Source: Capitulum mitella (taxonomy: Eukaryota > Arthropoda > Thecostraca > Pollicipedomorpha > Pollicipedidae). From it: a stretch of DNA of 64,000 nt. Shown here in pieces: positions 36,425-50,790 of the stretch (positions within the stretch are counted from its first letter, which is position 1; every line of letters starts with the position of its first letter). The stretch spans positions 7,251,432-7,315,431 of the forward strand of contig CP099846.1 in assembly GCA_030062745.1 (NCBI GenBank), given 5' to 3'. The notes under the pieces are model-generated. The model had not been told where the DNA came from. It did no database searches and saw nothing but the letters and a program-made list of their open reading frames with translations. A program made the position numbers and the translations under genes.

Positions 36425-36674
36425 CAGCGTCTCCGACTCCAGCGGTCCCGGACCGGCAGCGCCCGGCGGTGTCTTGCTCGGTCCCGGACCCGAGTTTGGC
36501 CGGATCCCAGACTCGGATCCGTGTCTAATCGGATCCCGGACTGGACCCGAGGCTGAACAGATCCCGGACCCGGATCGGAGCCCAAGTCGGTGAGCCGGAG
36601 CCGGGCGGCGGGTCTCTCAGAGCCTCCGTGCGAGGAGGCAGCGCCAGCCCCGTCCCGGCCCGCCTCAGATGCAA

Positions 36675-37605
36675 GGGTCGCGAACCTCCGCCCTGCGGCG
36701 ACCCCCGCCTCAGGTGCAGGGGTCGCGAACCTCCGCCCTGCGGCGACCCCCGCCTCAGGTGTGGGGGTCGCGAACCTCCGCCCTGCGGCGACCCCCGCCT
36801 CAGATGCAAGGGTCGCGAACCTCCGCCCTGCGGCGACCCCCGCCTCAGGTGTGGGGGTCGCGAACCTCCGCCCTGCGGCGACCCCCGCCTCAGGTGTGGG
36901 GGTCGCGAACCTGGCACCCCGCCTGTGGCGGACCCCCGCCTAGGTGTGGGGGTCGCGAACCTCCGCCCTGCGGCGACCCCCGCCTCAGGTGTGGGGGTCG
37001 CGAACCTCCGCCCTGCGGCGACCCCCGCCTCAGGTGTGGGGGTCGCGAACCTCCGCCCTGCGGCGACCCCCGCCTCAGGTGTGGGGGTCGCGAACCTCCG
37101 CCCTGCGGCGACCCCCGCCTCAGGTGTGGGGGTCGCGAACCTCCGCCCTGCGGCGACCCCCGCCTCAGGTGTGGGGGTCGCGAACCTCCGCCCTGCGGCG
37201 ACCCCCGCCTCAGGTGTGGGGGTCGCGAACCTCCGCCCTGCGGCGACCCCCACCTCAGGTGTGGGGGTCGCGAACCTCCGCCCTGCGGCGACCCCCGCCT
37301 CAGGTGTGGGGGTCGCGAACCTCCGCCCTGCGGCGACCCCCGCCTCAGGTGTGGGGGTCGCGAACCTCCGCCCTGCGGCGACCCCCGCCTCAGGTGCGGG
37401 GGTCGCGAACCTCCGCCCTGCGGCGACCCCCACCTCAGGTGTGGGGGTCGCGAACCTCCGCCCTGCGGCGACCCCCACCTCAGGTGTGGGGGTCGCGAAC
37501 CTCCGCCCTGCGGCGACCCCCGCCTCAGGTGCAGGGGTCGCGAACCTCCGCCCTGCGGCGACCCCCGCCTCAGGTGTGGGGGTCGCGAGCCTCCGTCCTG
37601 CACAG
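36675..37605 (+). repeat. 45-bp hairpin minisatellite, 21 copies
   Basis: Copies start at 36676 and then every 45 bp, with one variant 50 bp unit (36901-36950) and a partial last copy at 37581. Each unit holds the inverted repeat GGGGGTCGC...GCGACCCCC, nine perfect pairs around a 16-base loop. Copies differ mainly at two positions (gtgtgg, gtgcag, gatgcaa variants and c/t in cgcctcag), so homogenisation is recent. The 45 bp period without stops explains overlapping frames of up to 396 codons on both strands, which encode 15-residue peptide repeats and are not taken as genes. Confidence 0.95.
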
Positions 37606-42208: not shown

Positions 42209-42343
42209 TCAGATGAAAAATACGTCGTCGCCGTCGCTGTCGGTGGTGACAGACAGGGGCGGCAGAGCGCGCAGACTCCTGGGCTGGCGGGCCTCGGCCG
42301 GCCGCGGCCGCTCCCGACTCCTGCTCCTGCTCCAGCGCACCGA
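42209..42343 (-). CDS. Two-RA-domain protein, terminal exon
   Basis: A 135 bp exon: acceptor GCCGACAG ending at 42344, stop TGA at 42211-42209. It encodes 44 residues: a basic SRSRSRERPRP stretch and the C-terminus TTDSDGDDVFFI. The last four residues fit a class II PDZ ligand (hydrophobic-x-hydrophobic). An acidic DSDGDD run before it resembles casein-kinase-2 targets. Phase 0 at its start joins exactly to the 45111 exon. The stretch starts mid-frame without an ATG, so it shows only as a splice-bounded exon. Confidence 0.75.
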   Translation of the reverse strand, partial: SVRWSRSRSRERPRPAEARQPRSLRALPPLSVTTDSDGDDVFFI

Positions 42344-44334: not shown

Positions 44335-44957
44335 GCGCACCAGCCGTCTGAGGGGGAGCTCAAGTCCGCTCACCAGCCGTCTGAGGGGGAGCTCAAGTCC
44401 GCTCACCAGCCGTCTGAGGGGGAGCTAAAGTCCGCTCACCAGCCGTCTGAGGGGGAGCTAAAGTCCGCTCACCAGCCGTCCGAGGGGGAGCTCAAGTCCG
44501 CTCACCAGCCGTCTGAGGGGGAGCTCAAGTCCGCTCACCAGCCGTCTGAGGGGGAGCTCAAGTCCGCTCACCAGCCGTCTGAGGGGGAGCTAAAGTCCGC
44601 TCACCAGCCCTCCGAGGGGAACTAAAGTCCGCTCACCAGCCGTCTGAGGGGGAGCTTAAGTCCGCTCACCAGCCGTCTGAGGGGAAACTAAAGTCCGCTC
44701 ACCAGCCTTCCGAGGAGGAGTCAAAATCCGCTCACCAGCCCTCCGAAGGGAACTAAAGTCCGCTCACCAGCCCTCCGAAGGGAACTAAAGTCCGCTCACC
44801 AGCCCTCCAAGGGGAAATGAAGTCCGCTCACCAGCCTTCAGAGGGGAACTAAAGTCCGTTCACCAGCCCTCCGAGGAGGAACTAAAGTCCGCTCACCAGC
44901 CTTCCGAGAGGATCTAAAGTCCGGTCACCAGCTCTCTGAGGGGTACCCAAGTTTGCT
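44335..44957 (-). repeat. 33-bp minisatellite carrying a 5' splice site in each unit, 19 copies
   Basis: Nineteen units of 32-33 bp. The first eight are almost identical and the rest decay toward 44957. On the minus strand, which is the sense strand of the surrounding RA gene, each unit reads ...CCTCAGACGGCTG|GTGAGCGGAC, where the bar marks a consensus-like 5' splice site. The unit is homologous to the last 25 or so bases of the RA2 exon at 45111-45269 plus its donor, so the array seems to derive from that exon-intron junction. Two further homologous units adjoin the exon itself (45068-45110). Confidence 0.9.
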
Positions 44958-45067
44958 ATGTAATGCAAGATGTGTTTTATGTCCTTATGTTGTACTGACT
45001 GGGCCCCAAGAGCCACTGTGTGGAGGAGCCCTTATGAACAAATGCAGAATGATACAGAACACAGGAT

Positions 45068-45110
45068 GGTCCGCTCACCGGCCCTCTGAGGGGAATTTCA
45101 GTCCGCTTAC
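45068..45110 (-). repeat. Minisatellite units touching the RA2 exon donor
   Basis: Directly after the exon end at 45111 comes GTAAGCGGACTGAAATTCCC, then a second CAGAGGGCCG|GTGAGCGGAC. These two units link the real donor to the 19-copy array, with 110 bp of unrelated sequence between (44958-45067). Confidence 0.8.
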
Positions 45111-45269
45111 CAGCCGTCTGGGGGGGAACTCGCGCCCCGTCCTGGGCGTCAGGGCCAGCCTCTTCCTCAGCACGAAACAGCAGTCGGATGGCGAGCTCCA
45201 CTCGCGCTGAACCACCAGCGGGCAGTCGTCCTCCGGCAGTTTACGCTCGTAGTTCAGCGTCCGGCACAC
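45111..45269 (-). CDS. Two-RA-domain protein, exon encoding the end of RA2
   Basis: 159 bp, phase 0 at both ends. The acceptor TTCCAG ends at 45270 and the donor GTAAGC begins at 45110. It encodes VCRTLNYERKLPEDDCPLVV then QREWSSPSDCCFVLRKR and a tail ending EFPPRRL. 'ER.L...dcPL.vq..W......fvLr' is the closing beta-strand/helix signature of a Ras-association (ubiquitin-like) domain, which binds activated Ras/Rap GTPases in related proteins. It completes the domain begun in the two preceding exons. The exon's last bases are homologous to the adjacent 33 bp minisatellite. Confidence 0.85.
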
Positions 45270-45573: not shown

Positions 45574-45687
45574 CTCGTACAGCGAGTAGCCGGCGGCCTT
45601 CTCGGCAGAGCTGTAGCAGTTGAGCAGCAGTTGGATCAGCTCCTGCACCGTGGTCCGCTGCGAGATCAGCAGACTCTTGTACAGAGA
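45574..45687 (-). CDS. Two-RA-domain protein, middle of RA2
   Basis: 114 bp, phase 0 at both ends; acceptor GTTTCAG, donor GTACGC at 45573. It encodes SLYKSLLISQRTTVQELIQL then LLNCYSSAEKAAGYSLYE. This is the core of an RA domain: the second beta strand with the conserved Lys, 'TT..elI..lL..y' helix, and 'ysLYEV' strand completed by the first Val of the next exon. Strong codon bias (mostly G/C at third positions) marks it as genuine. Confidence 0.88.
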
Positions 45688-46738: not shown

Positions 46739-47085
46739 CTGTCAGAGGAAAAGCCGGTCAGAGTCGCCGCCGCCGCCGCCCAAAACGTCGCCGGCGTCGA
46801 CGTTTTGGACATGCACAACTGTCGGTCTCCCGCGCCTTGCAGCTGGGGACGCCAGGCATCAGGTAATCAACAACAAAGCCGCGGATCAGTTCAGTCGAGG
46901 ATTCCGCGTTGTCGCGTCGTCCGGAACAAACGTCTGCCGTCGGCGAGAACAGGCCCGCCTGGCGGCCGGGGCATTACGGCCAAAGTGGCGCAGTGCCGCT
47001 CACGGACGGCGGTGGCGGCCGGCACCGGATCGCGCCGCCGCGACCCCGGCGACCCCGACCACGGCATCCAGTCGGCCCGAGCGCG

Positions 47086-47630
47086 ACCCTCACAGAGCCG
47101 GCCCGAGCGCGACCCCCACAGAACCCGGCCCTCACAGAGCCTGGCTCTCACAGAACCCGCACCTCACAGAGCCCGGCCCTCACAGAGCCGGACTCCCACA
47201 GAGCCCGGCCCTCACAGAGCCGGACGTTACAGAGCCCGGCCCTCACAGAGCCGGACCTTACAGAGCCGGCCCTTACAGAGCCGGACCTCACAGAGCCGGA
47301 CCTTACAGAGCCCGGCACTCACAGAGCCGGACCTTACAGAGCTCGGCCCTCACAGAGCCGGACCTTACAGAGCCCGGCCCTCACAGAGCTCGACCCGCAC
47401 AGAGCCCGACTCTCACAGACCAGGCCTTCACAGAGCCCGACCCGCACAGAGCTCTGCCCTCACAGAGCCGGACCTTACAGAGCCAGCCCTCAAAGAGCCG
47501 GACCTCACAAAGCCCGGCCCTCACAGAGCCCAGCCGCCACAGAGCCCGGCCCTCAAAGAGCCGGACCTCACAAAGCCCGGCCCTCACAGAGCCCAGCCGC
47601 CACAGAGCCCGGCTCTCACAGAGCCCGGTC
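47086..47630. repeat. 15-bp minisatellite, about 35 units
   Basis: Units of about 15 bp around CTCACAGAGCC(C)GG with C/T and CA/TA variants fill about 545 bp. The period is a multiple of three, so three frames on the + strand and several on the minus stay open. They encode 'TEPALTEPD'-like peptides regarded as artefacts. It lies in the intron between the two RA1 exons. Confidence 0.9.
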
Positions 47631-47639
47631 CGGCCCACT

Positions 47640-49381
47640 TAAGTGGCCGCGGCGGATGCCGGCAGCGCCTGCTCCGTTTTCCGCGTGCGAAGTCGCCCAC
47701 GTTGGCGCGCTGCACGCCGGGACGCCGCACGGTGCATAAATCACGTTCGCCAAGCCGGTCCGGAATGACTCGGCAGGTGGAGGCGTGGGTGGCGGGCGTG
47801 CCGCGGCGGGAAGTGGCACCCGAAAATCCCAGGAATGCGGGACGGTTTGTGAGGGCCTATGTGGTCTGCAAACAAGGCGCTCTGTAAACAAACTCACAAA
47901 CCATCGCAGTGCTGAACTATGACTCGCGTTACTAAGGTAGCAGGACTGAAGTGTGCGGTTCGTTCTGGGAACGCTTATTTGGGGCAAGCATGGCTGAATC
48001 ACGCCCTGTCGGCATGCGTTTGGGAGAAAACAGGAGCGTTTCTGGACCAGATGTGGTCTGATACACATTTGGCGAAAGGCAACTGGGCAATACGTCAAGC
48101 GCCATTTGTTTTCCGGCCTCCTCGGCATTGAAGTGTTCAACGAAGCATTTCCATTTCCTTGCTTGGGAGGCGCGGAGACCTGGGAATGTGGGAATGCTGA
48201 AGCCTAAAGGTAACCCAGTAAAAGGCGCCAACAATAAATGCCCTCTTACATAACACCCCTTACATTAACACCCTCATGAATACGCCAAAATCCACTTAGC
48301 TCACAATATCGAGCAAGTGCGACAAAGTGTGGCCACCAGACGGGTGCCTGGTTCCGGCTCGCTCTGGTCCAGGACGCCGAGTTAAATCTCCTCGATCCGG
48401 TAGCCTGGGTCCGCTTCGAGCGGCGCTGTCCGAGAGCTCGGCCAGTGCGGTCGGCCACAGACGGAGACACATCCGGCCCGCAAGGCCACACCGCGGCCGC
48501 AGCCCCGCGCCTCGGTCTGGCAGTCCAGCACCACCAGTGACGGCCGGCGCCGTCCCCGGCCGCTCCGCACCGCCGCTCCCCGGCCGCCGCCGGACCAGAG
48601 ACGACCCGAACGGTCCGGGGACGCCGCGCGGTCACTGGTCACGACCGAGTGACCGCCGGCGCGCCGGTCACCTCTCGCCCGTCAGCCGGTCACCCCGGCT
48701 CTGACCGCCGAGCGACGATCGTCGCGGCCCGAACGCCCGTCAGCGCGCCGCAGCCGTGCCGGGCCCCACCCGGGCACGTCCGGCGCCAGCTCCCGGCCGG
48801 CTGGGCAGCGCGCGGCTCCCGGCGGCGAGGCAGGCACCCCAGCCGGGCACCAGGCCCGTCTCTCGGCCGACGTGCGGGGCGAACACGTGCGCCAGATATG
48901 TGGTCCGGCCGCAACTATAGCTCTCACGAGAGAGTACGGGGCTCGTGATCTGGCTCGGAGATGCGTCGTGACACCAAATCATGAGGCTACCTCTGCCACG
49001 ACGAGGGTGAGCGAGTGACGACCGCGCGGCCTCCGTGACCTCAAAATGTGGCCTGCTCCGAACACATTGTTCGCTGGTGGTATCAGTATGCGAATGACGG
49101 CAGCTATGCCATTCGGACGCTGTTCCCCGCGCCACGGCTGCCCAGATTACTGGTCGCGTCTTCCTGTGCACCCAACAAGGAAGATGACCCACAGACCGGC
49201 GGGAGCAATGACAGCCTAATTTTGCACGAGTGTCGCACCCACATCACTGTGGCAGAACAATGGCCTCGGCCGTGGAAGTAGACCAGGTCCGACCGGAGAC
49301 GGGCGAGTTCCTCTCTAGCTAGCAGACCGTCCGGGTCACCGCCGGCGTGACCCGGCGTGGCGGCCACCCCGTTCAACCGAC
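47640..49381 (-). other. Large RA1 intron, GC-rich
   Basis: GC-rich with overlapping frames on both strands (especially 48350-48920). No splice-bounded segment with RA-domain or other similarity was needed or found. The two flanking exons join directly in phase 1. Confidence 0.45.
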
Positions 49382-49559
49382 CTGTGCTCTTGGTGGCCAC
49401 CTCCAGGGTCAGGTAGAACAGGTTCGGGTCGCGGTGCGTCATCCGGTACTTGGTGAGTAGCTGGTGCACCACGTCACGACACGTAGTCGTGTATTTGACG
49501 CACATGGTCTTGTACTCCAGGTCGGCTCGCACGCAGCGCGTGTACAGCCGCAGCGTTGT
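49382..49559 (-). CDS. Two-RA-domain protein, start and core of RA1
   Basis: 178 bp; acceptor CGTTTTCAG ends at 49560, donor GTCGGT begins at 49381, entering in phase 0 and leaving in phase 1. It encodes TTLRLYTRCVRADLEYKTMC, then a strand and helix VKYTTTCRDVVHQLLTKYRM and DPNLFYLTLEV. This is an RA domain N-half: 'LrlY...l....eyKt..v...tT..dVv..lL.Ky.m....FyL..ev'. Together with 46654 it forms RA1. The exact protein family was not resolved. RA tandem proteins known to me include afadin/canoe and phospholipase C-epsilon, but the flanking sequence matches neither clearly. Confidence 0.88.
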
Positions 49560-50790
49560 CTGAAAACGCATCACGCCAACGAATTAAAAGCCTGCTCGTC
49601 ACATGCCGTCGCAATGGTGTTCCGGCTGGGGCGAATGAGTGCACTTAACTAGGAAACTGGAGGCGAAACGTTAGATCTTACGCAGAGATTATAACATTTC
49701 ACATCTCCCAGGCCGCAGCAGGCAGAATTTATAAGCCACCGTGTGTCAAGTGTGCGTCACGCTAAGTTATCCGATTCATCGCTATCGGCGGAGCAACGGC
49801 GTGACCGGCTGCAACTCGATCCGCCGGTTCCGGCTTCCGACACTGGAACCGGCGCATTACGCGTTATCGCGTTGCAAAGCTGCGAAAGGTAGAGAGTGGC
49901 TCGCTACCCCGACGAGTCCGACGGCGGCTGAGTGAACTGCAGAGCAGTTCTGCCGGTCGCGCTCCAACCCTGCCGCCGCCGGGCTGCGAGGGCGGCCGGC
50001 GACACCCGGCCCGCCCGCCTCCCCTCCGGAGTGGCACCCTTTCCCCCGGACAACTCCCACGGGTCCTCAGCCCCCTCCGGCCAGCCACGCGGCGCCCCCA
50101 AACACACGGCGGTGAAATTCCACACCCGATCACCCCGGTCCCGGGAGGCCGACAGTAAGAGAGAACACACGCCCCCACGGCGCGGCGCAGAGCACCGGAG
50201 AACGGAGTCTCACGGACAGCGCTCCGTAAAAAGCAGCGCCACTCTCCACCAAACAGACCCGAAAAAAGGTGGGAACCATAACGACGGACATAAAAACGAG
50301 GATATGAACTGGCGGAGGCAACATACCAATGTGTCCATACATGGAGGAAGATATGAAGGAAGTACAAGATGGGCGCAGATATTGGCCTTGAATGATTTAA
50401 CTGGCGGATAAATGTATGTCTATTTGCTTTCCTTAAATGATTGTTTACAAAGGACGGTTCGTCAATTTTCTCTTCTCGATCCATTTCACTTGCTTAAAAT
50501 GTTAGCTGATATACCAAGCAAATGGCGCGTCAGTTTCTTAGACAGGCCAGATCTAAACACTGACTCATTGCGAAACGCATCACCAACTGAAATCGACTCA
50601 TTTGCAAAGTTGCCACATGCAGTTGTTTCTCCAAAACTGAGAGTTTTTGTGTAAGACGCCCGAATGTCCCCGCTGTCCATTCCTTCGCCGCCAATGATTT
50701 TTTTTTTGCCGACAGTGTTTCGGACAAGTCGACAGTTGGGTTCGGGACCACGTCCCTGTTCTCCTTCCATAGCTGATCCTGAAGTCTTAC

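Follow-up and report, generated by a model that had tools for sequence, protein, structure and literature searches.

A minisatellite on the minus strand of a Capitulum mitella contig repeats the 3' end of an RA-domain exon together with its 5' splice site, and the same anatomy was found on exons of other genes of this genome. The focal array is most probably neutral, a minisatellite grown across an exon-intron boundary with its donor copies as by-products. A piece of ~32 bp, comprising the last ~20 exon bases and the first ~10 intron bases, would have been tandemly duplicated by slippage or unequal exchange, carrying the 5' splice site along, and further rounds of duplication would have built the intronic array. 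A dispersed repeat would then have come between the second and third units, and the exon-proximal donor at 45110 would be the one used, the donor copies staying intronic and being spliced out with the intron.

Gene model and anatomy of the array

The window, which is the whole 64-kb stretch analysed (G000:C8:7251432-7315431), lies within a 477-Mb genome of 16 contigs; features below are given in window coordinates, lie on the minus strand unless stated otherwise, and have splice junctions marked by a slash. The cuticle domain Chitin_bind_4 has 150 scored matches in this genome, from 627 first-look candidates and all above the cut-off, in keeping with an arthropod. Neither a tRNA nor an Rfam family reaching its gathering threshold was found in the window. 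One RA domain is split across exons A and B (Pfam RA, 2.2e-13, residues 3-75 of a 135-aa peptide made by joining exons A and B and a putative last exon according to predicted splicing). Exon A (SLYKSLL...YSLYE; 45574..45687) has checked boundaries and frame, a GC3 of 0.88 in frame and the donor GAG/GTACGC. Exon B (VCRTLNY...PPRRL; 45111..45269) comprises 53 codons in phase 0 with a GC3 of 0.89 in frame, lies between the acceptor TTCCAG/GTG and the donor CTG/GTAAGC, and reads CAGACGGCTG/GTAAGC at its 3' end. The GTAAGC at 45105..45110 (site 45110) is, judging from the sequence, the putative working donor of exon B. Phase 0 from this site enters the predicted last exon (SVRWSR...TTDSDGDDVFFI, stop; 42209..42343) in the frame with a GC3 of 0.85, the other frames having 0.64 and 0.62. 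The acceptor score of that exon ranks 20/42 against the introns surveyed below, the exon (42343-42209) terminates in VTTDSDGDDVFFI, and its ORF had no match in Pfam. A further RA-domain piece upstream (approximately 49401..49562; Pfam RA, 2.8e-08, residues 8-61 of ORF 49104-49583) probably belongs to the same gene as exons A and B.

The main minisatellite (44338..44943) contains 19 units of 32 or 33 bp, 16 of them with CTG/GTGAGC, and was reported by TRF as 33 bp x 18.5 with a score of 841. Donor-like GT dinucleotides run in register through the 19 array units, 32 or 33 bp apart, and through two copies touching the exon, at 45110 and 45078. The second repeat unit (45079..45110) ends at the donor-like site 45078 (CCG/GTGAGC), 32 bp beyond 45110, where an in-frame TGA (45077-45075) overlaps the site. 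Between these two units and the main array lies a 125-bp dispersed repeat (44944..45068); in a DNA search of the genome it was found as itself and 39 others at 84-93% identity (40 scored of 211 first-look candidates). By its position the dispersed repeat seems to have broken into the row, in which case some or all of the units would predate its insertion.

The last ~20 nt of exon B are themselves repeat-like. When the exon end and intron start were aligned to the array, the local score was 31 against a maximum of 19 among 500 dinucleotide shuffles, and the exon part alone scored 20 against a maximum of 19 among 500 shuffles. The coding end of exon B thus resembles the repeat more than chance allows, although the margin is narrow when the exon part is taken alone. 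A DNA search of the 477-Mb genome gave only the array and the copy at the exon end (45069-45130), in a search that ignores simple repeats and very common words and so does not imply that the array is unique.

These results bear out the first-pass annotation where it described an exon end and its donor multiplied in tandem (TRF, register, and alignment against shuffles) as 19 units plus two copies touching the exon (register of donor-like GTs). Its statement that each unit carries the donor boundary goes too far, the exact 20-mer CAGACGGCTGGTGAGCGGAC having only 8 copies on the minus strand of the window; likewise, the donor motif GTGAGC is present in 16 of 19 units, with GTGACC, GTGAAC and GTGCGC once each. 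The acceptor-like AG that it placed seven bases before each donor, from which it proposed potential 7-nt microexons, occurs at 12 of 21 sites, and GG or TG occupies the other 9. A frame-preserving 33-bp period was not recovered: spacings of 32 and 33 bp are mixed, the first being 32 bp, so that the frame is lost along the array.

Mean identity is 0.89 among the 11 distal units and 0.81 among the 7 nearer ones, and the exon-end unit is closer to the distal units (0.79) than to the near ones (0.62). The reverse order of events, in which an intronic minisatellite came first and supplied the exon end and its donor, would accommodate this closeness to distal units and also the position of the repeat-like exon end EFPPRRL outside the RA match. 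The repeated exon codons of a myosin V array (see below) are, however, conserved in solved myosin V structures, which argues that there the exon preceded the array, and an array-first origin is rather unlikely for exon B. Misassembly must also be considered, since a single assembly was examined and tandem copy numbers are prone to it, but the units differ from one another by the identities given above and a dispersed repeat sits between them, and we regard an artefact as extremely improbable.

Donor strength and coding consequences

Pairing energies with the U1 5' end were -8.1 kcal/mol for the unit donor and -8.0 kcal/mol for the real donor, against -14.0 kcal/mol for the consensus. Scored with a generic matrix against the donors of surveyed introns, the unit donor ranked 28/42 and the real donor 31/42. 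With a matrix built from the 42 surveyed donors, a small sample, the unit donor ranked only 7/42, the real donor 4/42 and site 45078 23/42. High score was part of the reason for choosing the surveyed donors, and this lowers all of these ranks. Across these scorings, the units showed no clear disadvantage against the real donor.

The multiplied donors may be bound by U1 and thereby influence splicing, the definition of exons or premature formation of 3' ends, and such a functional decoy or U1 platform would fit both the pairing of unit donors with U1, which is as good as that of the real donor, and the retention of GTGAGC in most units. Tandem turnover without selection already predicts the likeness of the units, however, and minisatellites are common in this genome. 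Moreover, surveyed splice sites lie in arrays more rarely than coverage predicts (1/84 vs 7.3, P 0.006), and comparable arrays in amphioxus were reported, in the excerpts cited, without interference in regular splicing (PMC3087553, PMC3902484). A functional decoy is very improbable.

Reading in frame past 45110 adds VSGLKFPSEGR (11 residues) and then meets the TGA. Twenty donor-like sites lie downstream of 45110; 19 of these, comprising all array sites, are beyond the in-frame TGA, and 45078 shifts the frame, entering the last exon in another frame to give 124 residues counted from the start of exon B. Hence the proposal that downstream donors could extend the RA protein by multiples of 11 residues is wrong where this allele is concerned: stepwise in-frame extension is ruled out by the TGA after VSGLKFPSEGR and by the frame shift at 45078, and the frame breaks and the stop together remove coding use of the array.

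Some mRNAs might nevertheless use downstream units and thereby carry an altered C-terminus, as in human IFI6 (6-16/G1P3). In that gene a minisatellite has multiple splice donors (Turri 1995), two downstream repeat units being described as used in the excerpt cited (PMC4526556), and this precedent, the shifted-frame reading from 45078 into the last exon and the higher rank of 45078 than of 45110 (23/42 vs 4/42) in the matrix from surveyed donors are all consistent with such use. Against it, 19 of the 20 downstream donor-like sites would include the in-frame TGA, and GC3 in the last exon is lower when it is read in the shifted frame (0.64 vs 0.85); alternative donor use of this kind would be quite improbable here. 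The focal array resembles IFI6 in that a minisatellite furnishes repeated splice donors, and differs in that IFI6 uses its downstream donors whereas in the focal gene all but one of the 20 lie behind an in-frame stop. Retention of the last-exon frame by downstream donors was not found, 19 of 20 sites hitting the TGA and 45078 being shifted.

Likeness to known systems and occurrence on other exons

In the literature found, exon-boundary minisatellites are described in excerpts concerning several amphioxus genes and human genes. The amphioxus 'mirages' are minisatellite-like tandem duplications of an intron/exon boundary, reported for Adh3, the globins BflGb6 and BflGb9, TnC and PGBD5; many but not all of their units bear AG/GT signals, and the units measure 10-72 bp (Adh3) to 150-160 bp (BflGb6). 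According to the same excerpts, mirages appear to leave regular splicing undisturbed, differ in length and may give rise to introns (PMC3087553, PMC3902484). The anatomy of the focal array is that of a mirage: its tandem units span the boundary, containing exon end and intron start (alignment and shuffles), and they bear the splice signal (GTGAGC in 16/19). Unlike the amphioxus mirages, the focal array has an arthropod host and a dispersed repeat within its row of units. No arthropod exon-boundary minisatellite was among the matches listed in the open-licence literature, which does not imply that none exists.

Intron gain by tandem genomic duplication (ATP2A1 and potato RdRp, in the excerpt cited; PMC4974935) likewise involves a tandem duplication that copies splice signals, and new introns in human paralogues may, according to the cited excerpt, be caused by variable tandem repeats located where exon meets intron (PMC2812944). 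The focal array differs from the former in being restricted to the donor side. A unit copy at the acceptor was sought in region 42420-42300, which scored 9 against the array, a value reached by 87/100 shuffles, and the rest of the focal intron scored 17, reached by 34/100. Birth of the focal intron by tandem genomic duplication was thus not supported, the acceptor region at 42343 having no unit similarity above shuffles.

The same anatomy was found on three further exons supported by homology. In a sodium/calcium exchanger gene (L015:2227-3219, within G000:C13:3000000-3009999; minus), an exon reading ..ELGGFKP/GTGAGAGTC is followed at its donor, within 2 bases, by an array of 61 bp x 16 (TRF); exon identity is given by PDB (E 4.4e-10 across residues 1-46 of 60 submitted). 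An IP3 receptor exon near the C-terminus (L047, G000:C1:45427961-45428370; minus) ends in LSDQLAELRDQ, has a PDB match reaching the last residue (E 2.1e-18), and has donor-bearing units downstream. A myosin V array, found via the second donor spelling AGGTGGGY (L041:5217-5351, G000:C2), consists of a 45-bp unit in which G-[YF]-P-S codons and AG/GTGGGC recur, with 2.7 copies by TRF and three occurrences of the exon end GATACCCGTCCAG/GTGGGCAGCGG in the fragment examined. Because these repeated codons encode residues conserved among solved myosin V structures, the exon sequence there clearly came first. In the same gene, AG/GTGG would itself encode the conserved R-W, a situation that the duplication model of intron gain describes.

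Apart from the focal array, four arrays with GTRAG in many units had their starts inspected by eye. One of the four, that of the sodium/calcium exchanger, begins at an exon donor, and no exon was seen at the array start for window 47105-47628, L010 or L011:7283-7964, which are GT-rich arrays. Pfam searches on 6 of 10 flanks of tandem-donor arrays (see below) gave only weak, sub-cut-off matches, namely ERM for L043 (16.7 bits, cut-off 40) and two for L047, and a PDB search with the L043 flank gave no match.

Several other arrays were recorded in passing. In the window, 47073-47628, in the same gene region as the focal array, is a 16/31-bp array with 24 GTRAG motifs on the minus strand, and 36659-37601 is a GC-rich array of 45 bp x 21 with CAGGTGTGGG in several printed units on the plus strand. 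At L051 (G000:C2:34189097-34189547), a putative exon is seemingly flanked by an acceptor-side array (CTCCTCAG/GTGGTGAGG) upstream and a donor-side array downstream. In a kinesin gene (L035, G000:C16:7104450-7109350; minus), an array of 17 bp x 20 from ~980 lies ~10 bp past an exon's likely donor without including it, and a repeat of 31 bp x 2.5 touches the donor in another intron.

Frequency of donor-bearing arrays

Minisatellite density was estimated in 264 kb, consisting of 18 arbitrarily placed 10-kb regions, two 10-kb flanks and the window, with a period of at least 10 and at least 3 copies; 43 merged minisatellites were counted by hand. At this density some will touch splice sites, and it is for this reason that a neutral origin is the likeliest for the focal array.

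Tandem triples of donor words were searched for in the genome, with reversals, scrambles and an acceptor-like word as controls. AGGTRAGY matched 766 times and its reversal 35 times; for AGGTGGGY, the second donor spelling, the corresponding counts were 313 and 155. Controls and their reversals gave 292 and 289 (AGTGRAGY), 462 and 213 (TGAGRAGY), 277 and 472 (AGGGTGGY), and 861 and 1145 (the acceptor-like CCTGCRRR). Expressed per single site, with sites counted outside arrays and the AGGTGGGY and AGGGTGGY quotients calculated by hand, the values were ~32 and ~22 for the two donor spellings and ranged from 1.3 to 47 over the ten controls, the highest control being YGGTGGGA, which contains the donor-like GGTGGGA. 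Because the controls vary so widely, match counts give no clear donor excess.

Distinct arrays were counted by hand on C1 and C2, giving 19 and 14 for the two donor spellings and 11, 10 and 6 for the scrambles AGTGRAGY, TGAGRAGY and AGGGTGGY, the last being weakly donor-like. Per single site, one donor spelling exceeded two scrambles 2.19-fold (CI 1.00-4.78); for both donor spellings the ratio was 2.40-fold against two scrambles (1.21-4.75) and 2.25-fold against three (1.18-4.29). Counted as arrays, the donor spellings thus stand about twofold above scrambles, which fits pure chance less well. The 19 AGGTRAGY arrays on C1 and C2 scale to ~108 genome-wide. Flanks of 10 of these 19, picked before viewing and including that of the IP3 receptor exon, were fetched and scored with a codon model that is above zero for 98% of 42 exon ends and 3% of 318 intron windows. 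Coding-like sequence was found upstream of 7/10 arrays at threshold 0 and 5/10 at threshold 0.2, compared with 5/24 for single donor motifs whichever threshold was applied (Fisher p 0.015 at threshold 0, 0.12 at threshold 0.2); the focal exon, with a score of 0.13, passes the first threshold and falls below the second.

Introns were surveyed in 16 kinesin/myosin regions, where 46 were modelled, 4 dropped for poor fit and 42 kept; 12 exon pairs had no splice solution, and pairs with profile gaps >12 were skipped. Arrays cover 8.7% of bases in the 42 surveyed introns and 5.5% of sampled-plus-window bases (score thresholds 45 and 50). Only 1/42 donors and 0/42 acceptors lie inside arrays, with 3.6 expected for each, which for donors and acceptors together is the 1/84 against 7.3 given above; among further exon ends, some of which are only domain ends, 1/36 lies in an array (myosin V). 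That arrays touch splice sites less often than coverage predicts suggests avoidance of these sites, and that some of the arrays, at least, are selected against.

The focal array taken alone is ordinary, being of the mirage kind known from amphioxus and similar to that of human IFI6; what is new is the arthropod host and the recurrence on several genes, those of the sodium/calcium exchanger, the IP3 receptor and myosin V, with homology-supported exons. With several genes of one arthropod genome affected, this genome offers a test bed for donor choice among near-identical copies and for arrays seeding introns. The wider question is how frequently splice donors have been multiplied across this genome. 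That minisatellites arise preferentially at functional 5' splice sites, with donor-copy arrays on roughly a hundred or more genes, is unlikely; if true, decoy and alternative splice sites would be permanently at hand, along with material from which new introns could form.
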